Part shown: one piece after another, positions 3,870 to 31,610 of the stretch
Layout: every line of letters starts with the position of its first letter
Position numbering within the stretch: the stretch's first letter is position 1
Origin: Eutreptiella sp. 'Long Island Sound 2002'
Lineage: Eukaryota > Euglenozoa > Euglenophyceae > Eutreptiales > Eutreptiaceae
Assembly (NCBI GenBank): GCA_964036045.1
Contig: OZ038382.1
Coordinates: forward strand, 108,460,578-108,524,577
Direction of reading: 5' to 3'
DNA: 64,000 bases
The notes under the pieces: model-generated
Databases searched by the model: none
The model's input: the letters and a program-made list of their open reading frames with translations, nothing else
What the model was told of the DNA's origin: nothing
Program-made: the position numbers and the translations under genes

Positions 3870-5035
3870 CTAGATTGTTGGTTGAGCAATCCACCAGCCA
3901 TTGGGGTCCTGTGGATACAAGGGCTGGCGCAGCAAGGACAGGGCACATCGCGGCTTGTGCGAGCTGATGAGGGCGAAGAATTGGACCATCGTGTCAGGGC
4001 CATCGAAGTGATTGGCGCAAAGCTGGAGCAGGACATAGTCCATTAAGGAGCTGCTGTACATCACCAACGCTTCAGACCAGGGGAGGACCTCTTGTTCACG
4101 GTGTTGACCATACAAGCAGACCCAAGTATTTCCGGCAAGTTCACGGATCCCATAAAGGCCGAATGGCGGGACGAAACTAAGCGGGTGAGGCCGGTACACA
4201 ACCTCATCAAGCATGGGCAGGTCGCTCGCAGTCAGAAAAGTCAGGCAGATAACTGATGACGTACCATAGAGCCATTCTGCCAGTAGACTGGTGTAATGCT
4301 TGTCCCGGACGTGCTCAGTAGGAAAGGCGAAGCCCCACAGCTGTCCATAGCAATCAAGGATTATCAAGTCGTCAAAGTGCTCGAAGAGAAGATGGATATC
4401 AGCCATGGGTGCGCAGAAGGGGAGCTCCTCGTCCGGTTCCAGCACATCAAGCAGGAGGACAGAGCCATCAAGGACTGCGAAAATACCCGCATGTACGGGC
4501 CGTATGGACTCTAGGCATTCGGAGGCAAGTACAATAGCAATTGGTCCAGGTATAACGGCCAGCTCGTGGAGGCGCAGGTGACACTGGTGCCGTACCTCCG
4601 TGTATGCGCTCTGTGTCTCCACAACAACGGTAGACATCCCTGCCATTCAGCCATGGGTATGTGCCCAAAAGTCGTAGAACACTGAGAGAATATCACGATA
4701 TCCCTGTGCATAGGAGTTGGCGGCCGTGGCGTTTCGTAGTGCAGTGCATTTGGCAAGTGCAATCGCCACAGTGGAGCACCATGACGCCGCTAGCGTGAGG
4801 GTTCGCGAGTGGAGTTCCAAAAGGGGAGCGCTCACGCGGTAGTGAAGAGCGTAGGTGGCCTGCATCATGAGAGTAACGGGGTCAGAGGAAGAGGCATCCA
4901 AAAAAGCGCGGTGAGCGGTGACGGCTGAAAGAGCATAGCAGCTAGAAAATCGATAATTCCATTCTACGAAGATATACGCCCGTCGGTAGCGTTCGAGCAA
5001 AGCTAAGTGTTCACGACGCAAGTGACGTGAACAGG
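3870..5035 (-). CDS. Hypothetical protein fragment, interrupted upstream by element A
   Basis: A minus-strand frame with balanced composition runs from the element junction at 5035 down to a stop at 3870. One in-frame TGA at 4647-4649 is followed at once by ATG (4644-4646), so the second part alone is a 258-residue ORF beginning MAGMSTVVVETQ. Residues are natural and mixed, with Trp, Cys and His spread along the chain (AEWLYGTSSVICLTF, PFGLYGIRELAGNTWVCLYG). I recognise no family. In the pre-insertion reading, codons for CSRHL in the 17-bp repeat continue the minus-strand frame found at 28099-28434. The TGA could be decay, a splice matter or a sequence error. Duplicated exon-like blocks lie just downstream on the same strand. 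Confidence 0.45.
5019..5035. repeat. Left copy of 17-bp target site duplication of element A
   Basis: CAAGTGACGTGAACAGG, identical to 28082-28098. The bases just outside the match differ at both ends. It sits exactly where balanced host sequence gives way to the GC-rich element. A chance 17-bp match within about 100 bp of both compositional borders is very unlikely. Confidence 0.85.
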
Positions 5036-7402
5036 TTTGAGGTCTGAGGTTTGATTTTGCGGGTACTAGACGCCTTTCGGCCCCGGGGGGCCACCTGGAT
5101 GGGCCAGGTGATATCCTCCCCACCGGGTCCTAGTGGGGGGCCCTCCAAGACGCACCTCCTGCCTGGTGGCGGAGTCCCCCGGGTTCACAGAGCTCGGAGC
5201 CCCGTCCTTCCCCGACGTCCCCGTTTCGCCACTCGCCGGTCAGTGCATCAATTCGCAGCCGTGGCTGCGGGCGCTTACCCACTGCGTCGGCCCCCTAATG
5301 TGTGGTCGCCCGGGGCGCCGGCGCCGCCGGGACCGTGCTACTGGCTTGTCGCCAGTGGGACCCCCTTGGGCTGGCGCGGAGGCCGCCTAGCCTAGGTGTT
5401 GGGGCGTGGCGCTGTGCGCCACTACTGCCTTGGCGGGCGCAGTGCCCCGTCTGTGTGTGCGCGGCGCTCGCGGCGAGTTCGGGGGGGTTCGGGCCGGCAC
5501 CTGGCGTCGTGTGTCTTTCGTTTCCCTCTCCCCGCCCCGCGTGTTCCGCGCTGCGTGTGGCGGGCCGTCTCGTCCGGGTGTCCCTTACCCTCGCTCGCTG
5601 GTACGCCATTCCATGCGGTCTGTGCGTTCCGCGCGCTCGGTCCGGTTGCCCTCCCGGTAGTCCCCGCGTGTCCCTGTCGTGTGTGTGCGCTCGCGCTCTC
5701 GCGGTGTCCGCTCCCTCCCCCGCTGGGTGGTGTGGCGCGCGCATCTCGCGTGGTCCCGGCACTGGGCGCTGGTAGGGCCGTTCCACGCGGTCCGTGCCCC
5801 TCCGCGTGTCCTGCCCCGGTCCCTTGCTCCGTCTGGCGTGCTTCGGGGGGGGCAGTCCGGTCCCGGTTCCCCCCTACTTGGCTTGGGGTTGTGGGGGCGG
5901 CGGCAGGGCGTCCCCGGGGGGGTGCCTTCGACCGTTGCGTGGGGCGTCTGGGGTCTTGCGCTCCTCCTCCCCCGACTGCCCGTCCACTGGGTGGGCTGTC
6001 GGGGTCCGCGTTGTGGGCGCGGGCGTGCGGGTGTGGGGGCCCTGCTCTGTCCCTGTGGGGGCTGCGCGCCGCGGGGCGGGTCCATGGCGTTCTTATGCTG
6101 GGGGGCGGGCTGGGGGGGGGGGGGGGGGTGCGCCGTTTCCTCTGGCTGTGCGGCCGGGGCGGGGCCTGTAGGGCGGGGGGTCGCTCTGCCTCTTTCCGTC
6201 CCTCTGCCTTCCCTGGGCAGGCAACAAAGCGGGCGTCACTGGCGTTCTGCTGTCCATGGAGGTCGTGGCCCCCCATACCACTCCGGTTCGTGCTCACCCA
6301 GCTTCTCTGGGTACGATCTGTGCGGCGTCCCGGTGCGCAGGCGTGGGCCCGCTTGTTCTTCGCGGCCCCCATGTGAGCCGGCGGCTGGGGCGGGGGGGCG
6401 GGTCACACTCCGGCTCCCCTCTCTGGCGGGGGGGGCCCATCCCCCCTGCCTCGGGGGGTGGGGGCCGGGGCCCCCGCGGCTGGCGGGCTGGTGGGGGGGC
6501 TGGGGGGGGGGGCTGTCGCGCCGCGGCCTCCCTGCTCTCATTCCGGGCGGCGGCCTGCAGTACTCCTTTCTGGCCCTCTCCGTGTCGCCGGCGCGCTCCC
6601 TTCCGGCGCGCGCGTGCGGTCGGGGCTGAAGTGCCGCCCCGGGGTGGGGGGGGGTGAGGAGCGACCCGTGGACCGCTCCCCCGGGGGCCCCAGCTGACCT
6701 GAACCCCCCCTCTGTCACCTCGGAGTGGGCTGTGGTTACGGGAGGGTCATGTGGGGCGCGGCCTCCTTCCTGTTCCGTTGTGCGCGTTGCTCCTGCACGC
6801 CGGTGTGGGTTCGCGGGAGCAGGTCCAGCCGCCGTTGCCCTTACCGCGTCGCCGTTCCTCCTGAGGGGGGGGGCGCCCCCCCGGCCCTGAGGGGGCGGAG
6901 GGCCGCGCCTGTGGCTCCCCAGCTGAGGTGGGTGCGGGGGGGGGGGTCGGGGGGCCGCGCCCCCGCCCGCTCTCGGACCTGTGTGGGAGGGGGGGGGGGG
7001 AATTGGGGGGGGCCCTTCGGTCCCCTGGCGATGCCTCCTGTCGGCCGGGGGGGGGGGGCGGCATGGCAGTCCTGGCCCTGGGGGACAGCCATCGGCGGGG
7101 GGGTCGCGCCCCTCCCCCGCACCCCTCTACCGAGAGCCGGATTCTCGCGCAGGCCCTCGCTGGGGCCCCCCATCCCCCGGCCGTTGTCGCGCGGCGCCGG
7201 CCGGCCGGGGATGGCCGTGAGGGTTAGCGGTCAGTGGTTAGCGGGCTGCGGGGCAGCAGGTTCCCCCCTCGCGCTCGTTGTCTCCGCACTCCCTCCCGCG
7301 GGAGGTGGCGCGCCCTCTTGCGTTGTGCCGTACTGTGGGGGGGGCGTGGGCCGGGGGGCCCAGCCCACCCCCCCAACTCTCCCGTACCCGCCGTCTGGGC
7401 CT
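5036..7402 (-). other. 3' region of element A
   Basis: About 2.4 kb, extremely GC-rich, with few A on the plus strand (few T in the sense strand) and many G runs, the longest 17 G at 6112-6128. Long open frames exist in nearly every frame because stop codons are rare; none looks like a protein. A diverged single copy of the 5' array monomer lies at about 5905-6075. The sense-strand end reads ...CAAACCTCAGACCTCAAA before the target repeat. Confidence 0.6.
5905..6075 (-). repeat. Solitary diverged copy of the 212-bp monomer in the 3' region
   Basis: On the plus strand GGGCGTCCCCGGGGGGGTGCCTT (in pieces of 20 bases or fewer), CGTTG, GGGGCGTCTGG, CCCCCGACTGCCCGTCCAC, then GCGGGCGTGCGGGTGTGGGG follow in the same order as in the array monomers at 20870-26745. 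It is more diverged than the array copies and resembles the outermost array copy at 26700-26800 best. Confidence 0.6.
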
Positions 7403-9555
7403 TCACCTGCGCCGTCGCTTGAGTGGGGGCTGGAGCTGCGGCGGCGGCGGGTTGTGCCGGCAGTAGCGCCAGTGGGCGAGGGCGCTGCGCAAAGCCCGGG
7501 GGAGCCAGTTGTTGGCGTCCGGATCCGTGATGCGGAGCACCGCTCCCCCCTCCAGGAAGGCCGGCCACGTCGGCTCCCTGTCGGGCCACGCCGCCCGGAT
7601 CACTGACCTGAGGACCCTCTCATGGTCCTCTGGAGCTGCCCACCCCCACTGGGGGTACCTCTCGGTTTCCTCCGTCCCTCCGGAGGAGCAGGGCATCGAA
7701 GGGCCGGTTCCTCGACCTCCTGGAGATCCCCTTGTTGGCCCAGCACAACCACCCGTACACCTCCCCCACCAGGGGGAGGGTCTCCTCCCCCAGAGGGTCC
7801 GGGACCGCGCCCCAGTCCCGGTCCCATGGCCGGCCCTCCTCCGCCCCCCGTGCCGGCCTTCCTCGCCTCCCCTGCGCCTGCGGCGCCGATGCCGCGCCCC
7901 GTCCCCCCTCCGCCGAGGCCATCCGCGCCGGCTCCACCCTCGGCGCGGGGGGGGCTTCATGGTGCTGGTGTCGTGGGGGTTGGGGGGGGACGAGCTCGCC
8001 GGCGTCAGGGTCGATGTTGTAGAGGTGGTGGTGGTGGTGGTGGTGGTGGTGGTGGGTGTGGTGTGCCGGCATCTGTTGGATGCCAGGGGGGGATGCACCT
8101 CACCGGCTGCACGTCCGGCTGCGGGGGCGCCCCGCCCTCTGCCCCCCTCCCTTCGCCCCGTCCTCCCCCCTGGGCTCCCATGCCCCGTCCCACCTGTCCC
8201 TTGGGGCCCGCGGCGCCCTTGCCCTTGCCCTTGGGCCCCTTTCCAGCCCCCTGCCCGTGTTGCGGGTCCCGCCTCCCGTCCTCCACGCCCTGGCCCGCTC
8301 GCTCTCCCACCTCCCCTCGCCCTGCCCCCTGCTCCTGGGCTCCCTGCCCGCGCCCCTGCGCGCCCTTCCCGCGCCCTGGCCCCTTTCCGGCCCCCTGCCC
8401 CGAGTCGCGCCGTCTGCTGCCTGCGCTCTGCTCCCCCCCGCTGCTGCGCCCTTCCTGGACCACTCGCCGGGCGTCCCGCTGCCTTTGCAGCTGCGGCAGC
8501 GTGACGCCCGGCGGCGAGCGCTCGCGCGTCGGGGGGCGGACGTGCCGCTCCCGCCCCGGGGGGAAGGGCTTGGGGGGGAACGGCTTGGGGGGGCTGGTGT
8601 GGGTGTGGGTGGGGTTGGCGTGGGCGCGGTACTTCGCGCTCTCCCTGCCCACTGCTGCTGCTGCGGCGGCCGCCGGCGAGGCGTCCGCGGCCCGTGCGGG
8701 GTTCTTCTCCCGCTTGCGCAGCGTGCTGGGGGCCGCGGCGTGGCCGGTCGAGGCGGTGTCGCGGCCCGTCGGGGTTGCGGCCGCAGCCCCTCGCGCGCCC
8801 TCCTCATTCTCCTTCGCTGCCGTGGCGGCCGCCGACGAGGCGCCCTTGGCCGCGGTCGCAACCCCTCGCACGCCCTCCTCATTCTCCTCTGCTGCCGCGG
8901 CGGCCGCCGGCGAGGCGCCCGCGGCCCGTGCGGGGTCCGTCCCCCGCGTTCGCGGCGTGCTGGAGGTCGCGGCGTGGCCGGCCGAGGTGGTGTCGCGGCC
9001 CGCCGGGGTCGCTGCCGCGGCCCCTCGCGCGCCCTCCCCGCTCTCCTTCGCTGCCGCGGCGGCCGCCGACGAGGCGCCCGTGGCCCGTGCGGTCGCAACC
9101 CCTCGCGCGCCCTTCTTGCTCTCCTCTGCGGCTGCGGCAGCCCTCGGCGATGCGCCCGGTTTCTGCGCCGGGGCTGCCCCTCTTGTCGGCGGCGTGCCGG
9201 GGGCCGCGGTCGGGGCCGCGGCGTGGCCCGCTGCGGTCTCCGCTTCCTGCGCGTCTGGGCGGGGCGGGGCGGCGGGGCTGGCTGCTTGGACGGCGGGGGC
9301 GGTGGTCTCGGCTGGCCCAGGCTCCCGGGCTGGCGGCGGCGGCCCGACCAGCACCGCCGCCTCCGCCAGCCTCCGCTCCTCGCGCTCCCCGAGGGTCTCC
9401 CCCGTCCACTCCGGGGAGGAGACGGGGGAGCGGGAGCGGGACCGGCGGTGGTGGCGGTCGTCCCGCTGGGGGGACCCATCGGAGTCTGCCATCACTGTTA
9501 CCCTGGTAGGCATGTGTGGTGGCAGGCGCGCCCTTCCCACTACCTCCTGGTGCAT
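7403..9555 (-). CDS. Element A ORF4: disordered Ala/Arg-rich protein with internal repeats
   Basis: The ATG at 9555 overlaps the ORF3 stop as TGATG. The protein begins MHQEVVGRARLPPHMP; an inner start MADSDGSPQRDD leads an RS-like basic stretch (HHRRSRSRSPVSS). The middle repeats an Ala-rich module about four times (AAAAAAKESGEGARG, ATPAGRDTTSAGHAA and variants). The first frame closes at 8005. Coding then appears to continue through a (GGT)n tract giving a His run, after two frame changes, into a segment with natural composition (VIRAAWPDREPTWPAFLEGG) ending at 7403 in PLKRRRR. No enzyme motif is visible; nucleic-acid binding is an inference from charge. The first 500 residues are well supported and the distal part less so. 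Confidence 0.55.
8024..8054. repeat. (GGT)n microsatellite inside ORF4
   Basis: About ten GGT units on the plus strand, read as His codons on the coding minus strand in one frame. The ORF4 frame is interrupted around this tract, as expected for slippage or a length-calling error. Confidence 0.85.
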
Positions 9556-10787
9556 CAGTGCCCTGCCGTGGGCAGTGCCGTGTGGTGCTCTGCGGGGGGG
9601 AGGGGGGGAGGGGGTGGGGGGCCGGCTGTGGCGTCAGCCCCGCACGACCAGGGGCCTGCGGCCATCCACCGGCATTGGGAGGGGAGGCGGGGGAGCCACG
9701 CGGCCCACGCGTCGCGCCACAGCTCCCAGTCTGGGGCGGGGCCCAGGGCCCTGGGCCCCCGGGGGTCGTCGAGCGGTGTCGGGGGCAGCCGCACCAGGTG
9801 GACCCCCGTAACGGCGGTGACCTCCTGTGTTCGCAGGAAGGTGTGTACTCCGTCCCGCGCCGCAGCCGCCGGGAGGGGGGGGCGGGGTACGGGTGTTGCC
9901 CCATAGAGGTGGGTGGGGGTGATCCCCAGGATCCGCCCCGGGTCCCCGCGGGTCGCGACGACGAGGAGGAGCAGGGGGGTGCCAGGGCACTCCTGCCAGA
10001 GGACCTGCCCCCTGTGGTGGGCACCCCTGGTCCTGGAGAGGGGGGGGAACAGGTCTGGGTTAGCCCAGCCGCGGGGCGCGTGCATCGCCGGCGGGAGGGC
10101 GGGGCACCAAGTGGGCTCCCTGGGGAACGCCTCGTAGACGACGGCGTACGGGAGGGTAGGCCTGATGCCGTCGTACACCGGGTTGGTCGGCCGGGGCTGG
10201 GCGGACGCCTCGTCCGCGCCTTCCACGAACACCGTGACCTCGCCCACCTCCAGGTCCTGGTGCGGTGGGTGTAGAAGGTGGAGCGGCGCATCCAGCTCGG
10301 ACACTCCTCCCGGGTACGTGGCCCACGCCTGGTTCAGGTACGGGGCCGCGTCCCCGGGGTAGCGCGTCCTGAGGGCGTGCAGCAGGGCTGGGGCGCTACT
10401 GCGGAGGGACATGGCAGACCCTGCTCCCGTCAGCCGCAGGGTGTCCCCCATGGACAGGGTCCGGCCCGACCAATTGGACTCGCGCCACTCCATCCAGTGC
10501 CCGTAGAGGGCTGCCTCCGGGCTGATGAGCCCCGGCCGGACTGCGTTCACGATCCGGTGCATTGCCGGGAGCAGCGTAGGGGCCCCCGCTCCGTTCAGGG
10601 TGCGGACGGCCGGGAGGGCGGTCTCGTTGAGGAAAGCCCTCGCACTGCCCTCCAGGTCACACCGTGCGGCAGCGTGCGCTTCGTGTGCCTCCGCCACCGC
10701 GTCCGCCACCAGGCCCCGGACGGCCGCATCCTGGGCTCTGCGGCGGGCCCTGGTGTGCCCCGGCCCATCCCCCCGTCGGCGTGGCAT
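9555..10787 (-). CDS. Element A ORF3: 410-residue protein of unknown function
   Basis: ATG at 10785-10787 (MPRRRGDGPGHTRARRRAQD), 39 nt after the ORF2 stop, intact to its TGA at 9555. The basic N-terminus is followed by a folded-looking body with hydrophobic segments (GHWMEWRESNWSG, EVTVFVEGADEA, LPYAVVYEAFPREPTW, TPLLLLVVATRGDPGRILG). I recognise no domain; it lacks zinc-finger, RT, endonuclease and RNase H motifs. Its last base pairs overlap the ORF4 start (TGATG), a layout known from termination-reinitiation in some LINEs. It may be a structural or nucleic-acid-binding accessory protein, but nothing in the sequence proves that. Being one uninterrupted frame, it is the best-preserved ORF of element A. 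Confidence 0.65.
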   Translation of the reverse strand: MPRRRGDGPGHTRARRRAQDAAVRGLVADAVAEAHEAHAAARCDLEGSARAFLNETALPAVRTLNGAGAPTLLPAMHRIVNAVRPGLISPEAALYGHWMEWRESNWSGRTLSMGDTLRLTGAGSAMSLRSSAPALLHALRTRYPGDAAPYLNQAWATYPGGVSELDAPLHLLHPPHQDLEVGEVTVFVEGADEASAQPRPTNPVYDGIRPTLPYAVVYEAFPREPTWCPALPPAMHAPRGWANPDLFPPLSRTRGAHHRGQVLWQECPGTPLLLLVVATRGDPGRILGITPTHLYGATPVPRPPLPAAAARDGVHTFLRTQEVTAVTGVHLVRLPPTPLDDPRGPRALGPAPDWELWRDAWAAWLPRLPSQCRWMAAGPWSCGADATAGPPPPPPLPPAEHHTALPTAGH

Positions 10788-10826
10788 GGTGCTGCGGGCT
10801 CTGCAAAGGGCGGCGGCGGGTGGGGG

Positions 10827-13800
10827 TTAGGGGGCGAACACGTGCGACAGGTGCGCAACGGAATTGGGGTCCCGCAGGTGCACGTGGATCCACAGAAGGG
10901 CAGCGCCCGCGGGGCCCGCCTGTTCGTGCGAGGGGGTGTGTGCCCCCTCGATGCGTTGGCGCAAGGCCTCCTCCTCTGTGCGCCTGCGCGGGCCTGCGGG
11001 AGGTTCGGGCCAGGGGCACGCGGCTACCTGGGCGCACCGCGCGCACCTGTTGGCGCCTGTCGATGCTGCGGAGGACACCGTGTCACATTCTCCGCAGAGT
11101 CGGCAGGTGTGTGGGAGGTGGGAGGGCGGCGACCAAGGGTCGAGATGGCGGAGCCAGAGGTCGTCCCACCTCTGTCGGAAGGGGTCCCGGATCTCCAGCA
11201 GGCGGGCGCGGACGCGGTGCCGGTAGTCCTTGCCAAGCGTCTTCCGCTGGACCTCCTGCCACGTGTCGTCAGGGAGGATCCCGTGGTCGTGGAAGGCGGC
11301 GCTGAGGTCGTCCCACGCCGGGCGGGGGTGCCCCTGGGGGGGGCTCGCCATGTACACGTGGCGCCCGGTGAGGTGGGGCGTCAGCGCATCCCATTGGCAC
11401 CCGTTCGCGGTGTCTCTGTGGAGGAGGGCCAGCAGGGTGCCGTCCGCGACTGCCTCCCACCCCACTCGCAGCCCTTCGCAGCCGTCTAGCTCCTGGCGCA
11501 GCGCGGCTGCAATGCCGGTTGGGAGCATGAGGAGCAAGGTCCCCTGGGTGTCGCCAAGCCGGGACAGGGCGTCGTTGTATACCGGCCCCCCAGCTTTGAA
11601 GTGCGCCACGGTGAGTTGGGTGGCCCCGTCCTCTGGGGGGTGCCACCGGACGGTGGCCGCAGCGTGTCCCCACGTGCGTATCTCCGTAGCCCGGAGCACG
11701 TTGGCGGCGTGAAGGACGATGCGGGGCGGGACGGGTGTCCTGACGAGTGAGGACACGTCCCCAGTCCATCCCGTTTGCGGCCCCGGGGCCGCCTGCAGTC
11801 ATTCCCCCGTCGCCGCGTCCCACGGGTGGTCAGGCCCCGCCCCGCGGATCATGGTGGGTCTCGGCCGGGTGTCCGGCCCCCACCACCGGAGCGGGATGGC
11901 GGCGTATCGTTGCGCAGGGGTCTCCGGGGCGCGCGTGGCGGCGCACCACCGGCTCCACTCCCGCGCCCACTCCTCCCCCACAATGCGCGCTTCCCATGCG
12001 GTCATGGAGCCGCGCCCGATGATCCACGGTGGGAAGAGGGCGTCTTGTAGGTGCCTCGGGAACCCCCCCGGCAGGTCCCGGTACGGATTGGGGCTCTCTT
12101 GGGGCGGGCACTCCAGAGTGCCATTCACAACACGGAGGGAGGCTACGAAGTCCTTGTCAGTTCGCGGGGGAGGGGGAGGGTGGTCGCCCTCCGCCGCAGT
12201 GAGCCATCGGTGTGCCCGGGCCGCCGCGCTCTGGGGCTCGCGGAGGAGTCGCTCCAGCCGGTGGTTGCAAAGGTCCCACGCGAAGTCCCCCAGCCGGAGC
12301 ATGTGGTGGAGGAAATCGTCCACCGAGGTCCCTCCCGGCGGGTCGTATCGGGTTATGGCGCGGAGCTGCGCCTCCGCGTCCTCGGGCACCAGTCCGGAGC
12401 AGAACACCTCCGTCCACGTGGCGCCTGCGGAGCGCCACGACGCCACCCACAGGGCCTTGTCCCCAGGTGGGAGGTGGCGGGCCGCCTCGTGTACCGCCTG
12501 GCGGTAGTGGGGCCAGAGGAGCCGTGAGTGGGTGCATCCAACGTGCATGTGCACCGGGGTCTCCTCCGTGCCGCCGCAGAAAAGGCACGGTTGTGGGACG
12601 ATGGCGACGCCGGAGAGCCGCTCCTTCCGGACGCGGAGCCTGCGCTGCACCGGCGTGTGGCCGTCTCGGGCCCGCAGCGCCCGGCGGTTGGTGGCCGCTG
12701 CCGTGAGGTCCCGGGCGTGGACGTAGGCCGTGGCGTGGGCCGCGCCCAAAGGTGTGTGTCCCCGGTGCGTCAGCGCATGGTCTGTCTGCGCCCGTTGCGC
12801 GACCTCGCCGGGCACCCGCATCGTGGGGGGCCGTAGATCGAGATGGCCCTCACGGCCGGCGACAATGTGTTGGGCGTGGCCAGGGTCCGGGGGCGTGTTC
12901 TGCAGGACGGTGTCCTGGGACGCCGCCCAGTCCGCCTTGTGCAGTAGGGCGTCACTGTGGTGCGAGGTGGCTCGGACGTACCAGAACGGGTGCCCGGCGT
13001 GTTGCCCTCGCGCGCACAGGCCGTCCTGGAGCCACCTCAGGGGCCTCTGTTGACCACCTTCGCCGCGCCCGCGGGGACCCCCGTGGTTCGTACGCGATCT
13101 GCGTGCCGCAGGAGGTGGAGGATGACTTCGGCGTCCACCTTGTGGACCCATGGTCTGTGGGCACCGTATTGTAGGGGGAGGGAGGCGGCCACCCCCTCCC
13201 CGTCCGGCACCGTGCCCGAGATGGCCACCGCCGACGTGCGGGTGAGGTCGGCAGCGAGAGCGACGCTGGTGGCGTGTTTGCAGGGTCCGCCCCCGGACGC
13301 GTCAGAGGAGGTGTGTCCCCAGGCCTCCGGGATCCAGTAGTATCCGGTGGGGCTCAGCCACCCCGCGTTGAGGTCGGCGGAGCGCCACCGGACGTCGGGG
13401 TGGCTGGGGGTCAGTTGGTCCACGCTCAGCGCCCTGGTGTCGCCTGGGCTGATCGCCGGGTGGTGGTGCAGCCGGATCTCCGCTCTGGCGACCGTGCTTG
13501 CCCAGGACCGTAGTGCCGTCCCATGTTCCTTGAGCCACGCCGGGCCCCCACGCTGGTGCACCACCAGGTGTCCCGTGTCCTCCGGCTGGTCCTCCAGCGC
13601 GTGTACCGGCATGTGTGGGTCGTGCGGCACCCCCGTAGCCACCAGTAGGGCGGTGCCACGGGGGAGCCCACGGGGTTCGGGCTGGCCTGCCCCCACTTGC
13701 ACTATTACCCACTCGGCCCGGAGCTGCGCTTGCCCCGTCGCTTGGGTGCATTGGTCGTCCGTGGTCACCAACCACAACGGCGTCGGCGCGTGGGGCTGGG

Positions 13801-17509: not shown

Positions 17510-17521
17510 GTCCCCCTGGAG

Positions 17522-20500
17522 TCAGCTATCCCGCATCGGCATCGCCGCCGGGTTCGCCGGTGCAGCCAGGGCATCTGGGTGCGCCGCATCCGCTGAGCCT
17601 GTTCCCAGCGGGGCCCACAGGGAGGCCCGGGCGAATGGGGGAGCCAGGGGGGCCAGGGGGGCCAGCCCCGCGGGGATGGACATGGACCCTGGTGGGGCCG
17701 CACCGCCGGCCCCCGGGGCTGCTCCGGGTGCCTCCTCATCTCCATCTGCATGGTCGGCTGCCTTGGGCGGGGGGCGCCAGGTGTACGGGGCGTGCCATGG
17801 GGACCTCCGTGCTCTCCCCTGCAGGATGTTGGTGGCCGCCTCCTTGTCGTCCGCCGGGGCCGCAGCGTGCACCGCGTGCCACGCCAGGTGTTCCAGCATT
17901 GCCCCGCTGGTGTAGTACTTGTCCGCACACAGGGGGCATTTCGTCGGCTCCGTGGCCCCTCGCGCCGGGGGGAGCGGCACCGACTTCTGAATGGCGCCCT
18001 CCGCCGCTGGTTCGAAGGGCAGGTTGGCCAGCGGCACCGTGTGTGGTGCCAGCGTGCGGCCCGGGGCCGCCCCATCGAGGGCTCGCGTCGCGGGCGCGGG
18101 CCCAAGACCTCGGATGGCATCGCGCTGCTCGTCTGCTTGCAGCCACGTTTGCCAGTGTGTGGAGCCGATTTGGCGGTCGGGCTTGCCCCTCCATCGCAGG
18201 TCGTGGAAGGCCTGTAGCCAGTGGTACACCGCGGTCGGGACCGCCAGCTGGAGCTCCAGGTCGGCGGGGTGCGCCGCTGCCGGCCACACTCCCGGCCTCG
18301 CTGCCCGGGCGTTGTCCTTCAGTTCGCCCTCCCGCAGCGCTTTGATGATCATGCGGGTGCAGTCTGCCACGCAGATCACGGCTTCGGGCCCCGGCAGGCG
18401 TTCGGGGTCGCAGACGACGATGTGCGCGTCCGCCGGGCTGAACATGCAGACCACCCACTGCGGGTTCTGCTGTCCCCGTTGGGCCACCGCCAGGGTAGCT
18501 GCTGGGCGGGCGTGCGTGATTGGCCCCGCGTGGAGGTCCGGGACGTCCGTGGCCCTGATGGCGTCTCCCTGCCACGCGGCCCGTAGATGCTCCTCCTGGT
18601 CGGGGCTCCACACCAGTGTGGGGGGGTTGACCCACCCCGGTTCCTGCCTCTTGTTGGGGGCGCTGACAGTGTGTAGCAGGACCGCCAGCGGCCAGGGGTC
18701 CGCCGACATATAGTAGGCCTGGGTGGGCCCCTGTCGCCAGTCGATGTGGGGCAGGGGCGGGAAAGCCCCTTGCCTGGCGGTGCTGTGCCAGACCGTCCAT
18801 CGGCCTCCGGCCAGGACGTGCGACCGGTACCCGCCGGCGTGGCCGTGTATGATGGCCTGGTAGCCTGCCGTCTGCAGTACCAGTGCCTCCCCCCGCTTAG
18901 GCCCGGGCGGGGGTGTGCCATCGCCCGCACCCCAGACGCGGGTGCGCCCGCGGAGTGTGGTATGCCACGGGTCTTGTGCATCGCACTGAGGCCCTTGCCA
19001 CCGGGCGGGACTGGCTGCGGGTAGTTTTGCGCGCCTCGGCGCTCCGGGTGCGTGTGGTACAGGTTTTGCCGGCGGTGTTCCGGGGCTGCCTGTGGTTGGA
19101 AGAGGAGTTGGTGCAGGTACCAGTGGCCCTCCGCGGTGGACGGGTTGCGGAGCGTTAGCCACTGTTCCACCACGCCTCCTGGGTGCGCGGCCTCGACGCG
19201 GCGCTGCAACCCCAGGCGGCCTAGGCGGTTGGACGTGCCCGCGGGTGGGATGTGGGCTTGCGGGTAGAGCACCCGCAGCGGCTCCAGCGCCAGGTCCAGC
19301 ACTTCGTCGTTGAGCTGCCTCGTGAGGGCCGACGCCCTGTGTAGGGCGTGGAGGACCCCGGGTGTGGGGGCCGTGAGCTGTTCGAGCACCCCCCCGGCGG
19401 GTACCGCGCACCCGGGTTCGTTAGCCACTCCCTGGTGTGGCTCAGTACGGCCTTCCACACGTCCCTTGTAAAGGCGTGCTGGGGGGCCAAAGAGGGGACC
19501 ATCTGTAGGAGGCGGTGGCACGCCGGCGGCGATCGCATGGGCTGTGGGGCGGCCGCCGTGATCCACCCGCACGCCGTGCCGGGCACGATCGCCCCCCTTT
19601 CCACGGTCCCCATGCCCTCGGCGTGGATCAGCGCCTGGCCCTGGACCATGGGGAAATAGGGGCTCGAGCGCCCCTTTCCTTCCTTCCACCGTACCCAGGC
19701 GGCCCCCGCCTGCAGGCTGCGGAGCAGGGCCACGCCAGGGAGGAGCAGCTGCGGGAAAGCCCCCTTGACGGCCTGGGTGGCGTGGGCCAAGGTGCCCATG
19801 GGCAAGTACCACAACGGGAGGGTCCAGGGGCCCGGCAGCGGTTGCGCCACCCCTGCGTCCCATCGCCACTCGGAGTCTGGCGGGGTGGCCGGGACGGTGC
19901 CCGTCTGCAGGAAGTGGCGTGCCTGCTTGTCGGGGTGCCGTTGGAGGGTTGCCGCGAGGCTGAGCCCCTCTGCCGCTGGTGCTACCGGGAGGCCGCCCCG
20001 GGGCCTGCGCCAGGGGCAATACTGGTCGGCCGGCCAGGTGTGGAGGTCCCGGGCGATGTCCTCCGCGGTCCCTGTGGGGGCGTCCTCTGGTGCCAGGTGC
20101 CACCTGACAGCGAGCACCGCCCACGTGGAAAAGGGCCACGCCCGCGGGGGGGTGTACACCTGGATGGTCCACTGTGGGCACGCCCGCCGCACGCGGGACG
20201 CGTGGAGCACCCCTCGGACCATGTCCGCCGCCAGGACCAGCACCATTTCCGAGGGTTCCACAATGATCCCCTCTGCGGGTCCGCCGTGGCGGCCCCGGGT
20301 GTGCAAGGCCACTGCCGCCTGTCCCGCGTGGGTGACTCGGTCTACGGCCTCCTGGATGTTCACGCTGCCGCGCGCGGTCTCATCCAGGATCCAGCCCTGC
20401 ACCACCCTGTAGCGTAGGGCGGCGCGTGCGGCCGCGGGTTTCACCTCGGGCAACGCTCCGTCATCGGGGCCGGGCTGGGGGTGCTGTTTGGGGCACCAGC

Positions 20501-20753
20501 CTTCGCCAGTGCAGTGGCCCTGTTTCCTCGCGGGGCAGATCGCGGGTACGCTGCCCGCCGGCGGCGCAGGTTCCGCGGGCGCGCCTCCCGGGGGGGGCTC
20601 CGGCAATGCCTCCAGGTCGGAGTCCGTGCCCGCGTCCCCTTGTGGAGGGTCTCCTTCGCCGTCTCTGAGTCCCAGTGCCCAGATGACCTCGTGTGCTTCG
20701 TCCAGCGTCGGAGATCGGGGGCGTGTCTGGCGTGGTGCCGCGGGTTCCGCCAT
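17522..20753 (-). CDS. Element A ORF1: CCCH and C2H2 zinc-finger protein, frame broken twice
   Basis: The likely start is the ATG at 20753 (MAEPAAPRQTRPRSP), about 117 nt past the monomer array. Residues 73-91 (CPARKQGHCTGEGWCPKQH) fit the RNA-binding CCCH pattern C-x7-C-x5-C-x3-H. The frame shifts near 19390, at a run of seven C, and again near 18890, at another C run. Both shifts equal one missing base. The last frame runs to 17522 and holds a C2H2 finger (17876-17938, CPLCADKYYTSGAMLEHLAW then H; C-x2-C-x12-H-x3-H). Non-LTR ORF1 proteins typically bind element RNA; that role is inferred. The tail is rich in Ala, Pro and Gly. If the C-run gaps are sequencing errors, the protein is intact at roughly 1,078 residues. 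Confidence 0.7.
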
Positions 20754-20869
20754 TGCTGTCTCGCTGTGTCTAGAAGCAGGGGGGGAGGGTGCGGATGTCC
20801 CGTGGCTGGTGCGTTGGTGCGCTGGTGTGTTGCTCGGTGTGGGGTTGGTGGATGGGCAACCCCGGGGGG

Positions 20870-23800
20870 GCGCTTTCCAGCGTTGCGAGGGGCATCTGGT
20901 GTTAGGCGCTGTCCCTCTCCCGGTCGCCCGTCCTCCGGAGCGGGCAGCCAGGGTTCCGCGACCCGTGTGTCCCGGGTGCGGTCGATGCGGGCGTGTGGAC
21001 CCAGCACCGGCCCCACAGCGTGCGCCCTTGCGGGCTGGCGTTGCTCGCTGTGGGGGTGGCGGAAGGGCGTCCCCGGGGGGGGTGCCTTCCACCGTTGTGA
21101 GGGGCGCCTGGTGTCAGGCGCTGTCCCTCCCCCGACCGCCCGTCCTCTGGAGCGGGCAACCAGGGTTCCGCGACCCGTGTGTCCCGCGTGCGGTCAATGC
21201 ACGCGTGTGGATCCAGCACCGGCCCCACAGCGTGCGCCCTTGCGGGCTGGCGTTGCTCGCTGTGGGGGTGGCGGAAGGGCGTCCCCGGGGGGGTGCCCTC
21301 CATCGTTGTGAGGGGCGCCTGGTGTCAGGCGCTGTCCCTCCCCCGGCTGCCCGTCCTCTGGAGCGGGCAGCCAGGGTTCTGCGACCCGTGTGTCCCAGGT
21401 GCGGTCGATGCGGGCGTGTGGACCCAGCACCGGCCCCACAGCGTGCGCCCTTGCGGGCTGGCGTTGCTCGCTGTGGGGGTGGCGGAAGGGCGTCCCCGGG
21501 GGGGGTGTCTTCCACCGTTGTGAGGGGCGCCCGGCATCAGGCGCTGTCCCTTTCCCGGCCGTCCGTCCTCTGGAGCGGGCAGTCAGGGTTCCACGTCCCG
21601 TGTGTCCCGGGTGCGGTCGGTGCGGGCGTGGGGACCCAGCACTGGCCCCGCAGCGCGCGCCCTTGCGGGCCGGCGTTGCTCTCCTTGGGGGTAACGGAAG
21701 GGCGTCCCCGGGGGGGGTGCCTTCCATCATTGTGAGGGGCGCCTGGTGTCAGGCGCTGTCCCTCCCCCAGCCGCCCGTCCTCTGGAGCGGGCGGCCAGGG
21801 TTCCGCGTCCCGTGTGTCCCGGGTGCGGTCGGTGCGGGCGTGGGGACCCAGCACCGGCCCCACGGCGTGCGCCCTTGCGGGCTGGCGTCGCTCGCCGTGG
21901 GGCTGGCGGAAGGGCGTCCCCGGGGGGTGCCTTCCACCGTTGTGAGGGGCGCCTGGTGTCAGGTGCTGTCCCTCCCCCGGCCGCCCGTCCTCTGGAGCGG
22001 GCAGACGGGGTTCCGCGACCCGTGTGTCCCGGGTGCGGTCGATGCGTGCGTGGGGACCCAGCACTGGCCCCACAGCGTGCGCCCTTGCGGGCCGGCGTTG
22101 CCCGCTGTGGGGGTGGAGGAAGAACGCCGGTCGGTGCGGGCGTGGGGACCCAGCACCGGTCCCACAGCGCGTGCGCCCTTGCGGGCCGGCGTTGCTCGCC
22201 GTGGGGGTGGCGGAAGGGCGTCCCCGGGGGGGGTGCTTTCCACCGTTGTGAGGGGCGCCCGGTGTCAGGCGCTGTCCCTCCCCTGGCCGCCCGTCCTCTG
22301 GAGCGGGCAGCCAGGGTTCCGCGTCCCGTGTGTCCCGGGTGCGGTCGGTGCGGGCGTGGGGACCCAGCACCGGCCCCACAGCGTGCGCCCTTGCGGGCCG
22401 GCGTTGCTCGTTGTGGGGGTGGCGGAAGGGCGTCCTCGGGGGGGGTGCTTTCCACCGTTGCGAGGGGCGCCTGGTGTCAGGCGCTGTCCCTCCCCCCGCC
22501 GCCCGTCCTCTGGAGCGGGCGGCCGGGGTTCCGCATCCCGTGTGTCCCGGGTGACGTCGGTGCGGGTGTGGGGATCCAGCACCGGCCCCGCAGCGTGCGC
22601 CCTTGCGAGCCGGCGTTGCTCGCTGCGAGGGTGGCGGGGGGGCGTCCCCGGGGGGGGGTGCTTTCCACTGTTGTGAGGGGCGCATGGTGTCAGGCGCTGT
22701 CCCTCCCCTGGCTGCCCGTCCTCTGGAGCGGGCAGCCAGGGTTCCGCGTCCCGCGTGTCCCGGGTGCGGTCGGTGCGGGCGTGGGGACTCAGCACCAGCT
22801 CCAAAGCGTGCGCCCTTGCGGGCCGGCGTTGCTCGCTGTGGGTGTGGCGGAAGGGCGTCCCCGGGGGGGGGTGCCTTCCACCGTTGTGAGGGGCGCCTGG
22901 TGTCAGGCGCTGTCCCTTTCCCGGCCGCCCGTCCTCTGGAGCGGGCAGCCAGGGTTCCGCGACCCGTGTGTCCCGGGTGCGGTCGATGCGGGCGTGTGGA
23001 CCCAGCACCGGCCCCACAGCGTGCGCCCTTGCGGGCCGGCGTTGCTCGCTGTGGGGGTGGCGGGAGGGCGTCCCCGAGAAGAGGTGCCTTCCGCCGTTGT
23101 GAGGGGCGCCTGGTGTCAGGCGCTGTCCCTCCCCCAACCGCCCGTCCTCTGGAGCGGGCAGCCAGGGTTCCGCGACCCGTGTGTCCCGGGTGCGATCGAT
23201 GCGGGCGTGTGGACCCAGCACCGGCCCCACAGCGTGCGCCCTTGCGGGCCGGCGTTGCTCGCTGTGGGGGTGGCGGAAGGGCGTCCCCGGGGGGGTGTCT
23301 TCCACCGTTGTGAGGGGCGCCTTGTGTCAGGCGCTGTCCCTCCCCCGGCCGCCCGTCCTCTGGAGCGGGCAGCCAGGGTTCCGCGACCCGTGTGTCCCGG
23401 GTGCGGTCGATTGGGGCATGTGGACCCAGCACCGGCCCCACAGCGTGCGCCCTTGCGGGCCGGCGTTGCTCGCTGTGGGGGAGGCGGAAGGGCGTCCCCG
23501 GGGGGGGTGCCTTCCGCCGTTGTGAGGGGCGCCTGGTGTCAGGCGCTGTCCCTCTCCCGGCCGCCCGTCCTCTGGAGCGGGCGGCCAGGGTTCCGCGACC
23601 CGTGTGTCCCGGGTGCGGTCGATGCGGGCGTGTGAACCCAGCACCGGCCCCCCAGCGTGCGCCCTTGCGGGCCGACGTTGCTCGCTGTGGGGGTGGCGGA
23701 AGGGCGTCCCAAGGGGGGGTGCCTTCCACCGTTGTGAGGGGCGCCTGGTGTCAGGCGCTGTCTGTCCCCTGGCCGCCTGTCCTCTGGAGCGAGCAGCCAG

Positions 23801-26745
23801 GGTTCCGCGACCCGTGTGTCCCGGGTGCGGTCGATGCGGGCGTGTGGACCCAGCACCGGCCCCACACCGTGCGCCCCTGCGGGCCGGTGTTGCTCGCTGT
23901 GGGGTTGGCGGAAGGGCGTCCCCGGGGGGGGTGCCTTCCACCGTTGTGAGGGGCGCCTGGTGTCAGGCGCTGTCCCTCCCCCGACCGCCCGTCCTCTGGA
24001 GCGGGCAGCCGGGGTTCCGCGACCCGTGTGTCCCGGGTGCGGTCGATGCGGGCGTGTGGACCCAGCACCGGCCCCACAGCGTGCGCCCTTGCGGGCCGGC
24101 GTTGCTCGCTGTGGGGGTGGTGGAAGGGCGTCCCCGGGGGGGTGCTTTCCACCGTTGTGAGGGGCGCCTGGTGTCAGGCGCTGTCCCTCCCCCGGCTGCC
24201 CGTCCTCTTGAGCGGGCAGCCAGGGTTCAGCGACCCGTGTGTCCCGGTCGCGGTCGATGCGGGCGTGTGGACCCGGCACCGGCCCCACAGCGTGCGCCCT
24301 TGTGGGCCGGCGTTGCTCGCTGTGGGGGTGGCGGAAGGGCGTCTCCGAGGGGGGTGCCTTCCACCGTTGTGAGGGGCGCCTGGTGTCAGGCGCTGTCCCT
24401 CCCCCGGCCGCCCGTCCTCTGGAGCGGGCAGCCAGGGTTCCGCGACCCACGTGTCCCGGGCGCGGTCGATGCGGGCGTGTGGACCCAGCACCGGCCCCCC
24501 AGCGTGCGCCCTTGCGGGCCAGCGTTGCTCGCTGTGGGGGTGGCGGAAGGGCGTCCCCGGGGGGGTGTCTTCCACCGTTGTGAGGGGCGCCTGGTGTCAG
24601 GCGCTGTCTCTCCCCTGGCCGCCTGTCCTCTGGAGCGAGCAGCCAGGGTTCCGCGACCCGTGTGTCCCGGGTGCGGTCGATGCGGGCGTGTGGACCCAGC
24701 ACCAGCCCCACAGCGTGCGCCCTTGCGGGCCGGCGTTGCTCGCTGTGGGGGTGGCGGAAGGGCGTCCCCGGGGGGGGTGCCTTCCACCGTTGTGAGGGGC
24801 GCCTGGTGTCAGGCGCTGTCCCTCCCCCGACCGCCCGTCCTCTGGAGCGGGCAGCCAGGGTTCCGCGACCCGTGTGTCCCGGGTGCGGTCGATGCGGGCG
24901 TGTGGACCCAGCACCGGCCCCACAGCGTGCGCCCTTGCAGGCCGGCGTTGCTCGCTGTGGGGGTGGCGGAGGGGCGTCCCCGGGGGGGTGCCTTCCACCG
25001 TTGTGAGAGGCGCCTGGTGTCAGGCGCTGTCCCTCCCCCGGCTGCCCGTCCTCTGGAGCGGGCAGCCAGGGTTCCGCGACCCGTGTGTCCCGGGCGCGGT
25101 CGATGCGGGCGTGTGGACCCGGCAGCGGCCCCACAGCGTGCGCCCTTGCGGGCCGGCGTTGCCCGCTGTGGGGGTGGCGGAAGGGCGTCTCCGGGGGGGG
25201 TGCCTTCCACTGTTGTGAGGGGCGCCTGGTGTCAGGCGCTGTCCCTCCCCCGGCCGCCCGTCCTCTGGAGCGGGCAGCCAGGGTTCCGCGACCCGCGTGT
25301 CCCGGGCGCGGTCGATGCGGGCGTGTGGACCCAGCACCGGCCCCACAGCGTGCGCCCTTGCGGGCCAGCGTTGCTCGCTGTGGGGGTGGCGGAAGGGCAT
25401 CCCCGGGGGGGTGTCTTCCACCGTTGTGAGGGGCGCCTGGTGTCAGGCGCTGTCCCTCCCCCGGCCGCCCGTCCTCTGGAGCGGGCAGCCAGGGTTCCGC
25501 GACCCGTGTGTCCCGGTCCGGTCGATTGGGGCGTGTGGACCCAGCACCGGCCCCACAGTGTGCGCCCTTGCGGGCCGGCGTTGCTCGCTGTGGGGGTGAG
25601 GGAAGGGCGTCCCCGGGGGGGGTGCCTTCTGCCGTTGTGAGGGGCGCCTGGTGTCAGGCGCTGTCCCTCCCCCGGCCGCCCGTCCTCTGGAGCGGGCAGC
25701 CAGGGTTCCGCGACCCGTGTGTCCCGGGTGCGGTCGATGCGGGCGTGTGAACCCAGCACCGGCCCCCCAGCATGCGCCCTTGCGGGCCGGCGTTGCTCGC
25801 TGTGGGGGTGGCGGAAGGGCGTCCCCGGGGGGGGTGCCTTCCACCGTTGTGAGGGGCGCCTGGTGTCAGGCGCTGTCCCTCCCCCGGCCGCCCGTCCTCT
25901 GGAGTGAGCAGCCAGGGTTCCGCGACCCGTGTGTCCCGGGTGCGGTCGATGCGGGCGTGTGGACCCAGCACCAGCCCCACAGCGTGCGCCCTTGCGGGCC
26001 GGCGTTGCTCGCTGTGGGGGTGGCGGAAGGGCGTCCCCGGGGGGGGTGCCTTCCACCGTTGTGAGGGGCGGCTGGTGTCAGGCGCTGTCACTCCCCCGAC
26101 CACCCGTCCTCTGGAGCGGGCAGCCAGGGTTCCGCGACACGTGTGTCCCGGGTGCGGTCGATGCGGGCGTGTGGACCCAGCACCAGCCCCACAGCGTGCG
26201 CCCTTGTGGGCCGGCGTTGCTCGCTGTGGGGGTGGCGGAAGGGCGTCCCCGGGGGGGTGCCTTCCACCGTTGCGAGGGGCGCCTGGTGTCAGGCGCTGTC
26301 CCTCCCCCAGCTGCCCGTCCTCTGGAGCGGGCAGCCAGGGTTCCGCGACCCGTGTGTCCCGGGTGCGGTCGATGCGGGCGTGTGGACCCAGCACCGGCCC
26401 CACAGCGTGCGCCCTTGCGGGCCGGCGTTGCTCGCTGTGGGGGTGGCGGAAGGGCGTCCCCGGGGGGGGTGCCTTCCACCGTTGTGAGGGGCGCCTGGTG
26501 TCAGGCGCTGTCCCTCCCCCGGCCGCCCGTCCTCTGGAGCGGGCAGCCAGGGTTCCGCGACCCGCGTGTCCCGGGCGCGGTCGGTGCGGGCGTGGGGACC
26601 CAGCACCGGCCCCACAGCGTGCGCCCTTGCGGGCCGGCGTTGCTGGCTGTGGGGGTGGCGGAAGGGCGTCCCCGGGGGGGGTGCCTTCCACAATTGTGAG
26701 GGGCGCCTGGGGTCAGGCGCTGTCCCTCTCCCGACTGCTCGCTCA
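20870..26745 (-). repeat. Array of about 28 monomers of 212 bp in the 5' region of element A
   Basis: The landmark GCGCTGTCCCT recurs at about 20908, 21119, 21330, 21543 and so on to 26719, giving 28 copies with a period close to 212 bp. One extra partial unit lies at about 22113-22210. Two subtypes alternate in blocks: GATGCGGGCGTGTGGACCC (most) and GGTGCGGGCGTGGGGACCC (21600-22800 and about 26580). Copies are highly similar, with scattered substitutions. The array ends about 120 nt before the ORF1 start, as promoter monomers do in mouse L1. The long open frames that cross it on both strands are by-products of its composition. Confidence 0.95.
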
Positions 26746-28081
26746 CTGCTGGGCGGGTTGCCGGGGTTCGTTGGGTGTGTGCGGTGTGTGTGGTGTCTGT
26801 GCCGTGGGTGTCGTGGTGCGTGGTGCTGCTCTTCGCTTGGTCCTTGGGTGCTCCCCTCTCTGGTGTCTCTGTGCAGTGTTGTGCTCGCCGTGTACCCGCC
26901 GTGTCCCCTCCCCTGTGCGCGCCCCTTGCTCGTCTGCTGGCTACCCCTTGTTCCTTTCGCGGCTTCGTTGCTCTTTACCCTTTCCTCTACCCTTCTCCCT
27001 GACATGGACTTTTTCCCTGCCTCCGCTTTGTTGTGTGTCTCTGTCTTTTTCCTTGTCGGCCCGGGCTTCCTCCTTTGAACCTGCGTAGAGAGAAGAGAGG
27101 GCGTAAACGGGCGTGCGGCGGCGGCGGTTTTGTCGCGACACGGCACCTCGAGCTGGCTGGTACGTCATGCGACATGCGTGTGCGACCGGCGTGTGCGTAG
27201 GTTTATTGTCCCACCTGCTCCTGTCTTGACTCCACACCCCTTTGGCCGCTATCTTTGCTCGTTGCCCGTTCCGCGCGCGCGGCGTGACATGCAACATACC
27301 TGTTTCTTTCCCCACTACCTTAACGTGTCCTAGTCCTCCCGCCTTGCCGGGCGTTCGCTAATGTGAGACGACGGCACGACGCAATACTTGCCTAAGCGTC
27401 TAAGACAACCCTACTTTAACGCCCGGAGAACGCAAACACGAGCATACGCTTCTCCTTGGGACCTGTGAGGGGAAGAGAACGTGGGTGCATGCACGTGTGT
27501 TTGTCGGGACCCGGCATACGACGGCGCTATGCTATTTGTGTGTATGCTCCCCGTGTCTCCCTCCCTGGCTATTTGTGTGTTCTAATCAGCGCAACAAAAA
27601 AGGGTGGTTGTGCTGTCAGAGCAGTTGTCACGGTTGCCCCACATTGCACCGCAGGGCAGGACCGTTAGCCCCCCGTGACAACCACTCCCTGGCCGAAGGC
27701 CATTTCTTTTTTCCCCGTCTCGGTTGGTGGCGCGGGCCGGGCGGTTGGCGACGTTGCACGACATGGTAACATACTTGCGTTCTTGGTGGCGGTGTGTGGC
27801 TTGCCTACCATTTGTTTGCATGCGGCGGCATACCTTTTGTCCCCTTTCGCTCCCTTTCGCCTCCTACATAAGCGGGCGTGCGATTGGGCGGTGGGCACGT
27901 CTCGGTTACGCCTCGTGGTCACCTTTTACTTTTGTTGGCGTGGTTGCCGTTCTCGTCTCGTGTTCGTTGCGTAGCGTAGCGTGGCATGCAACATACTTGG
28001 ACCCGACTAGCCACGTGTGTATGTTTAGTTTTTGTTTGTGTTTTTTTTTTGTGTGTTATGCTTCACCTGAATGACGTTAAC
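26746..28081 (-). promoter_or_regulatory. Outer 5' leader of element A
   Basis: About 1.3 kb between the array and the right target repeat, with no convincing ORF. 26746-27080 continues the T-poor sense composition with diverged monomer-like sequence. 27080-28081 is more balanced and carries a recurring sense-strand motif GTATGTTGCATGYC (near 27286-27300 and 27983-28000, weaker at 27760-27777) that resembles 5' splice donors. An A-rich sense tract (T run at about 28030-28050 on plus) lies near the 5' tip. A transcription start or leader splicing here is inference. Confidence 0.4.
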
Positions 28082-28098
28082 CAAGTGACGTGAACAGG
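28082..28098. repeat. Right copy of 17-bp target site duplication of element A
   Basis: CAAGTGACGTGAACAGG, identical to 5019-5035. It marks the return to balanced host sequence. Confidence 0.85.
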
Positions 28099-28434
28099 GG
28101 GCAGCAGTCGTGCAATGGGAGCCAGAAGAGGGCAGTCCGCATGGAACACCCGCAGAGATAGTTGTCACATGGACGCCCCGCTTACCGATGATAGTTTGGA
28201 ATGGCGTTGGCTTCGCGTTGTAACGCCAAAATAGTTGTATAGGCACGCATTGTGTCATTGGCTCAAGAAGTGCCGGCAAGTCGACCCCTCGGGAACCATC
28301 ACGTATCCGTGGCAAGGCTCCGCCCTCACCGCAACGCGGTGGAGTGATTGGAAAATCTGGAGAATTGGCCTCCAAGGCTACGCAGAAGCATGCATGGTGC
28401 TCAGTGAGGCCGCCTTGTATGCCTTATTCATGGT
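28099..28434 (-). pseudogene. Possible upstream part of the host frame split by element A
   Basis: A minus-strand frame is open from about 28431 to the target repeat and reads CSRHL through the repeat in the same frame as 5035-3870. Joining the flanks at a single repeat would give a continuous minus frame of about 240 codons before the TGA at 4647. Composition is ambiguous (PTPFQTIIGKRGVHVTTI), and the plus strand here also has plausible frames, so it is not certain which strand was coding. Confidence 0.3.
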
Positions 28435-28761: not shown

Positions 28762-28866
28762 GTGTGCAACCGCTGTGCAAGGGTGTGCAAGTGCCGTCGT
28801 GCCCACACTCCATGTGTCAATGATTGTAGGACGGGTGGGTAAGCGGCCCATGATGCAACTAGGGTG

Positions 28867-30895: not shown

Positions 30896-31048
30896 CTAGC
30901 CTACACCCTCGTTCAAAAGCTACGTCATGCAAGGGGTTGAGAGACCATTGAAGGACATGGCACTCACTATCGGAGGCTCCTCCTTGGGGCCGTTAAAGCA
31001 TTTCCAAGCTTTCGCAAGGAGATTGTAATTTCCGCACAGACCTCCAAA

Positions 31049-31489: not shown

Positions 31490-31610
31490 TTCCAATGATG
31501 GAGGATGCGTCTTTGCTTGTATTATGTGTGATTTGTAGTGCATTGTCCACATGTGCTCGCATTGGATGGATTCTTTTTTTTTGTACTACGGCGCGCACCG
31601 CGCGTAGCAT

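Follow-up and report, generated by a model that had tools for sequence, protein, structure and literature searches.

A 64,000-nt stretch of the Eutreptiella sp. 'Long Island Sound 2002' genome (C5:108460578-108524577 of the 2.28-Gb assembly GCA_964036045.1, contig OZ038382.1), hereafter the window, harbours a 23-kb block that is almost certainly a single target-primed insertion of a giant long interspersed nuclear element (LINE) with an apurinic (APE)-type endonuclease, from a family whose paired ends lie ~20-30 kb apart. What was observed directly comprises the family terminus at either end, a target-site duplication (TSD) of 17 bp, further copies of the element, and the site in its empty state. 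An earlier reading made from the letters alone, here called the sequence-only reading, had proposed that a perfect 17-bp repeat brackets a minus-strand block with an endonuclease and a reverse transcriptase (RT), and both proposals hold. The 17-mer, CAAGTGACGTGAACAGG, is present at 5019-5035 and 28082-28098 on the same strand with 0 mismatches, such a pair occurred in 0/100 shuffled sequences, and a pattern search of the whole genome found four occurrences in total: the window has two, and the loci L001 and L002 have one apiece. The block between the 17-mers is GC-rich and possesses APE endonuclease and RT domains on the minus strand. The same reading placed the 17-mer exactly at both compositional borders. 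This applies to the left side, where GC increases at ~5.0 kb, at the position of the repeat; on the right side, GC drops from 0.723 at 26-27 kb to 0.578 at 27-28 kb, ~1 kb before the repeat, because the 5′ leader of the element is less GC-rich.

A paralogue with a single 17-mer, which the sequence-only reading had suggested as a check, was found twice. L001 and L002, both on C4, harbour the left flank, one 17-mer and the right flank joined together, and within the 3,017 bp fetched their mutual identity is 99.97%. The alignment of either locus with the joined window flanks spans 1,578 bp at 93.2% identity, 60 bp of it beyond the 17-mer on the right side. In L001 the insertion site lies inside an open frame of 891 aa, and the joined window flanks keep this frame, save for a TGA at 4647-4649 where L001 has tryptophan. 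Homology of the right flank to L001 and L002 stops at 28158, and therefore the target is itself a partial copy of the L001/L002 sequence. Given two empty-site paralogues with one 17-mer, 5036-28081 is a single insertion into another sequence with a 17-bp TSD. A protein search with the joined target open reading frame (ORF) was rejected as proof of the empty site; its sole relative, P0086, covers 21% of the query and matches beyond 28158, in a different repeat (by eye). The insertion and its target comprise the following features:

3870..5018, minus strand: target ORF, downstream part, with the TGA read as tryptophan in the paralogue (flank and L001 comparison)
5019..5035, no strand: TSD on the 3′ side of the element, exact 17-mer
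5036..28068, minus strand: LINE copy of 23,033 bp, 5′-truncated by ~932 bp relative to other copies (boundaries conserved elsewhere; collinear with the copy L085-L087)
28069..28081, minus strand: 13-bp filler separating the TSD from the truncated 5′ end, 10/13 positions matching the TSD interior
28082..28098, no strand: TSD on the 5′ side of the element, exact 17-mer
28099..28158, minus strand: target ORF, upstream part, to the end of homology with the empty-site paralogues

The boundaries of the element recur elsewhere in the genome. A 418-bp query from the 5′ end gave 40 matches (40 of 967 candidates scored), and the 39 besides the window start at query base 31, corresponding to window 28068. 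Other fetched copies share up to ~932 bp upstream of this position and then diverge, mostly at GTCGCGCGATCGCAGCAG. This 5′ terminus is present in 21 of the 29 fetched 5′ loci, while in the remaining 8 homology starts at various internal points. With a 400-bp query from the 3′ end 41 matches were obtained (40 of 1152 candidates scored), and 30 fetched 3′ loci, the window included, end in a TCAAACC-type tail. Exact terminal words occur 688 times (5′, 21 bp) and 3708 times (3′, 27 bp; this word is possibly common to related subfamilies) in the genome, and the reversed patterns 0 times. The 3′ terminus is common to these copies, and the family 5′ terminus lies ~932 bp further out than in the window, making the family slightly larger than the sequence-only reading held. 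An apparent TGTT preference after the tail (T, G, T and T in 26, 18, 20 and 19 of 29 3′ loci) was rejected as ascertainment bias because the 3′ query included the TSD of the window copy; pairs on C1 found without this TSD in the query show varied bases after the tail. Two family 3′ ends stand tail to tail, a few bases apart, at C15:46772253-46773033 (L056), and inverted 3′ words 2.4 kb apart were seen at C1:48476157/48478545 and C1:48643089/48645477.

Exact end words were paired on C1 up to ~54 Mb, on the same strand and within 35 kb. A 3′ word was found for 12 of 24 exact 5′ ends (0.78 expected), at a distance of 20.1-30.5 kb in nine of them (0.28 expected for 19-31 kb; wrong-strand control 1) and of 7.1-7.8 kb in three. 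These 12 pairs were compared together with L030/L053 and L018/L094 (22.8 and 21.1 kb by coordinates). Ten of the fourteen pairs possess an exact TSD of 10-35 bp, whose start coincides with the tail end or is a few bases away from it, so that copies sharing the termini with different flanking repeats, another check proposed earlier, are present. The longest, in L030, is an exact run of 35 bp and extends to ~51 bp with one mismatch allowed, leaving 26 nt before the conserved start. L090/L091 has an 8-bp exact run within a 16-bp repeat with 2 mismatches (by eye). Among 182 mismatched pairs, a run of at least 9 bp was found in one when its position was required, and the position-free version gave a 25-bp match in one mismatched pair, due to a shared repeat. 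Between window positions 28068 and 5033, collinearity was found with the copy L085-L087 at C1:23756996. Besides array length, it differs by ~440 additional bp at ~19.0 kb, ~450 additional bp around 7.0-7.3 kb, and a different short tandem repeat at 8.7-9.1 kb.

Composition varies along the block and a long tandem array lies inside it, as would be the case if an RT element, a satellite array and a GC-rich 3′ block had inserted independently side by side, with the 17-mer as a coincidence. Nevertheless, the empty sites with one 17-mer, the collinear copy on another chromosome, and the paired ends with their own TSDs make this extremely improbable. Duplication of large blocks, segmental or DNA-mediated, could instead be behind most copies, and flanks are indeed shared beyond the element in L010/L013, L148/L149 and L077/L100. 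However, among 91 5′ flanks compared (L013, a duplicate of L010, L075, the same as L025, and 8 loci without terminus were omitted), just two pairs have the full 60 bp in common, and these resemble duplications of a larger block. The termini are fixed, exact TSDs stand at the simple-repeat tail, examined copies have unrelated flanks, and the 5′ loci without terminus start at various internal points; we regard duplication as the main source of copies as very improbable. The single LINE insertion proposed in the sequence-only reading is therefore retained, with the two empty-site paralogues and the other copies of common 3′ terminus and own duplications as its support.

Several points weigh against this reading or narrow it. 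The window copy is neither full length nor coding-competent. The target locus is paralogous to L001 and L002 in part, and on the right side the evidence for the empty site comprises 60 bp plus the 17-mer. For 12 of the 24 exact 5′ ends no same-strand 3′ word was found within 35 kb. No TSD was found in three of the fourteen pairs, namely L065/L066 and the short forms L073/L074 and L079/L080, and 8-bp exact runs as in L090/L091, for which there is no matched control, also occur in 2/182 mismatched pairs. The comparison for whole-length collinearity covered one copy, L085-L087, and nested insertions may account for part of the distance in some pairs of 27-30 kb.

Under the single-insertion reading, the ORF2 endonuclease would nick the bottom strand of the target ORF, and reverse transcription of an RNA of ~23 kb or longer would be primed at the TCAAACC tail. 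It would halt before the RNA 5′ end, resulting in 5′ truncation. The second strand would be cut 17 bp away, and joining would leave the 13-bp target-like filler at 28069..28081, for which an equally good match was found in 74 of 200,000 random flank 13-mers.

The family layout comprises a leader of ~2.3 kb, an array of 212-bp monomers, ORF1, an ORF2 of ~2,230 codons with APE endonuclease and RT, a 3′ region of 5.8 kb, and a TCAAACC tail. In the window copy the parts are as follows:

26734..28068, minus strand: 5′ leader, ~1.33 of 2.3 kb present (5′ query and fetched copies)
20829..26733, minus strand: tandem array of 212-bp monomers, 28 here (repeat count)
17522..20820, minus strand: ORF1 region, spread over several frames here (in another copy, ~20.8-18.5 kb is spanned by an open frame of 960 aa)
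10827..17521, minus strand: ORF2, ~2,230 codons, broken by TAG at 14441, TGA at 11799 and a frame change near 13.1 kb
16715..17485, minus strand: APE-type endonuclease domain (PF03372, 9.2e-9, residues 13-269)
14879..15610, minus strand: RT domain (PF00078, 4.7e-20)
12513..12647, minus strand: zf-RVT-like zinc-binding segment (PF13966, 0.014, below the curated cut-off)
5036..10826, minus strand: 5.8-kb 3′ region past the ORF2 stop, with GC reaching 77% and few T on the element sense strand
5036..5057, minus strand: 3′ tail of TCAAACC-type heptamers, one variant unit here

The array has 28 monomers in the window, 20 in L085-L087, and 18 and 19 in two short forms. Together with the leader it most likely forms a putative internal regulatory or promoter region, its monomer number varying among copies as in mouse L1. 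At 5.9-6.0 kb, stretches of ~100-125 bp resemble the monomers and recur in the array (self-BLAST). Self-BLAST (E up to 1e-10, at least 60 bp) detected no leader-to-3′-end repeat, and hence no long terminal repeats (LTRs). In the ORF1 region, ~440 bp lying within the open frame of another copy, and present in L085, are absent from the window at ~19.0 kb. Near the C-terminus of ORF1 (~17,876-17,941) a weak C2H2 zinc-finger match was found (E 0.3, below the cut-off).

Ten solved chains matched the RT, each described as reverse transcriptase-like protein, R2 retrotransposon protein or ORF, RNA-directed DNA polymerase, or LINE-1 ORF2 protein. Compared with a 74% identical copy at 40038-43903, substitutions fall mainly on third codon positions, those of the ORF2 frame as far as ~13.2 kb and, from ~12.9 kb, those of a second frame down to 10.97 kb. 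In L085-L087 both frames are one, and the frame change is therefore damage in the window copy. In 11 protein relatives (79 relatives were found among 8000 scored candidates) and in L085-L087, the frame continues beyond the position of the TAG at 14441. At 11799 the TGA of the window corresponds to TGG in L085-L087 and to AGG at 43072 in the 74% identical copy, which has its own one-base loss nearby. The TAA at 10827, shared in position with L085-L087, probably marks the true end of ORF2, ~2,230 codons after the frame start.

Three further claims of the sequence-only reading bear on this anatomy. Its four ORFs are for the most part fragments of two ORFs; stop codons are very rare in this composition, the window holding 109 stop-to-stop frames of at least 200 aa over both strands. 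The apparent full length is contradicted by the ~932 bp that other copies have beyond 28068, by the ~440 bp absent at ~19.0 kb, and by the broken ORF2. The size of several times that of a usual LINE agrees with the 23 kb measured here and with the similar size of other genomic copies.

By kind the element is a LINE, with a LINE-type RT, variable-length TSDs, no LTRs, and 5′-truncated copies that share their 3′ end (8 of 29 5′ loci lack the terminus, and exact 3′ words outnumber exact 5′ words by 3708 to 688). It differs from the LINEs known to us in size, in its array and in its 3′ region. An apurinic-type endonuclease upstream of the RT places it with the APE-type LINEs, which include L1, Tad, I and related groups. 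It shares with them the endonuclease-RT order in ORF2, ORF1 followed by ORF2, variable TSDs, 5′ truncation, and a simple-repeat tail, and differs in the 5.8-kb 3′ region, the ~6-kb array, and the ~2,230-codon ORF2. RNase H is found in the I, R1 and Tad clades; a search restricted to Pfam gave no RNase H match after the RT. SLACS/CRE elements of trypanosomatids possess ~185-bp repeats in their 5′ region, similar to the repeats here, together with a restriction-like endonuclease and one target. Membership in this group was rejected, as the present element has an APE endonuclease and varied flanks.

Monomers of mouse L1 are ~200 bp long. Similar to mouse L1, the element has monomers upstream of ORF1 in numbers varying between copies, but the 18-28 monomers in four copies (two of them short forms) exceed the average of 1.5-3.7 given for young mouse L1 subfamilies (excerpt of PMC9022269). 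Unlike mouse L1, a leader of ~2.3 kb lies 5′ of the array, and the comparison is one of layout. Human L1 measures ~6 kb (excerpt of PMC4859970), against ~20-30 kb between paired ends here. Giant LTR retrotransposons (Ogre, Burro) and Terminons are also unusually large, whereas the element here follows a non-LTR mode and no terminal repeats were found; in the excerpted part of the review describing them, no giant LINE is named alongside (PMC6431247). Searches of the open-licence literature on giant or long LINEs found no LINE of this size described.

Extrapolation of the nine long pairs among 24 exact 5′ ends to all 688 would give roughly 250 long copies. A LINE is copied at its target in a single long round of reverse transcription, and to our knowledge most copies of known LINEs are cut short. 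Many long copies imply unusually processive machinery or a protected intermediate, and the family offers a natural test of the length that target-primed reverse transcription can reach.

Short forms of the element were also found. L088 (7.1 kb) and L089 (7.3 kb) comprise the leader, part of the array and approximately the last 1.4 kb, and no match to the ORF1 and ORF2 regions was found in either. The deletion junction of one recurs in the other, as do the ~24 nt before the conserved start, whereas the flanks differ; neither has a detected TSD. The third short pair, L067/L068 (7.8 kb by end pairing), has a 14-bp TSD. L088 and L089 look like non-autonomous derivatives, which the ORF proteins of complete copies probably mobilise in trans. 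The short forms keep the leader, the array and the 3′ end, and therefore cis-required signals probably lie there.

Additional nucleotides, here called tags, separate the TSD from the conserved 5′ start. In 11 TSD pairs they measure 7, 15, 16, 18, 19, 21, 26, 26, 27, 28 and 32 nt and are copy-specific (one mismatch allowed in the L030 TSD, two in that of L090). Five pairs among the 91 5′ flanks have ~24-36 nt (by eye) in common immediately before the conserved start and diverge beyond them; the tolerant rule of the script gave 27-39 nt for these five, with nine pairs passing its threshold and no chance control. Two other pairs share just 10-11 nt, probably by chance. As the shared tags are common to loci with different outer flanks, they were in an RNA that got copied, which suggests a transcription start located upstream of the element. 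A partial repeat of the 5′ terminus is present in two of these common tags, the tags of L132, L134, L131 and L135 ending in a GTCGCGCG-like sequence, and this partial second copy suggests slippage at the 5′ end.

It is tentatively proposed that the RNA as a rule begins 7-36 nt upstream of the element 5′ boundary, in any DNA that happens to adjoin it, that new copies would carry a short segment of the flank of their parent in place of their outermost 5′ end, and that satellites lacking ORF2 may be mobilised in trans by means of leader, array and 3′ end. The 7-32 nt tags could equally be fillers formed at the integration junction and not transcribed parental flank, an explanation that is quite possible, though short of probable. 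Extra nucleotides at 5′ junctions are a known type in LINEs, including zebrafish ZfL2-2, although full-length L1 and Nimb-2_DR inserts are mostly joined directly, where the copies here carry extra nucleotides (excerpt of PMC4245944). Junction fillers are also consistent with the L081 tag, which is unique in the genome within 2 mismatches, and with the filler of the window, which does resemble its target. The latter is an exception: local target origin was rejected as a general rule, the 11 tags having a mean score of 6.27 against their own targets and of 6.39 against mismatched ones. The five locus pairs sharing tags also argue against fillers, since their bases are heritable.

Two more tags were searched genome-wide within 2 mismatches. 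One was found only at the two loci sharing it, and that of L067 was found in seven further places with 2 mismatches each, of which the five fetched are mutually homologous and not beside an element end. These mixed results fit capture of a host RNA as well as parental flank. L160-L164 represent a dispersed repeat nearly matching (2 mismatches) the 26-nt tag of the element at C1:8512160; in L160, the locus with frames listed, a frame of 993 aa runs antisense to the match, and Rfam gave no match on L160, L161, L163 and L164.

Human L1 reportedly has variable start sites influenced by the upstream flank, as Lavie et al. are said to have described in 2004. If the parental-flank proposal is true, copy genealogies would be readable from the 5′ tags, linking parent and child copies directly, and a promoter within the ~2.3-kb leader and 4-6-kb array would account for the retention of the 5′ end by a non-LTR element of ~23 kb.

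The window harbours other elements besides this copy; the Rfam scan gave no match and no tRNA was found in it. The second LINE relative on the plus strand, at 40038-43903 and continuing to ~52 kb, is ~74% identical over the C-terminal part of ORF2 and is followed by a T-poor region of ~8 kb with several tandem repeats. Because this relative also has a T-poor stretch downstream, a long T-poor 3′ region may be common to related families. A 1378-aa frame on the minus strand at 32396-36532 possesses an endonuclease domain (PF03372, 2.3e-14) and no RT match, and this protein has no other match within the window. The plus-strand regions 53118-58685 and 61634-63571 comprise repeated stretches, 82-88% identical. 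One of them, with an RT domain, precedes a frame that has an endonuclease domain, the reverse of the usual endonuclease-RT order, and the two regions are probably a mixture of broken copies. Positions 1-1600 and 28600-31500 are gene-like, and words of the TTGCACAC type abound in their apparent introns (by eye).

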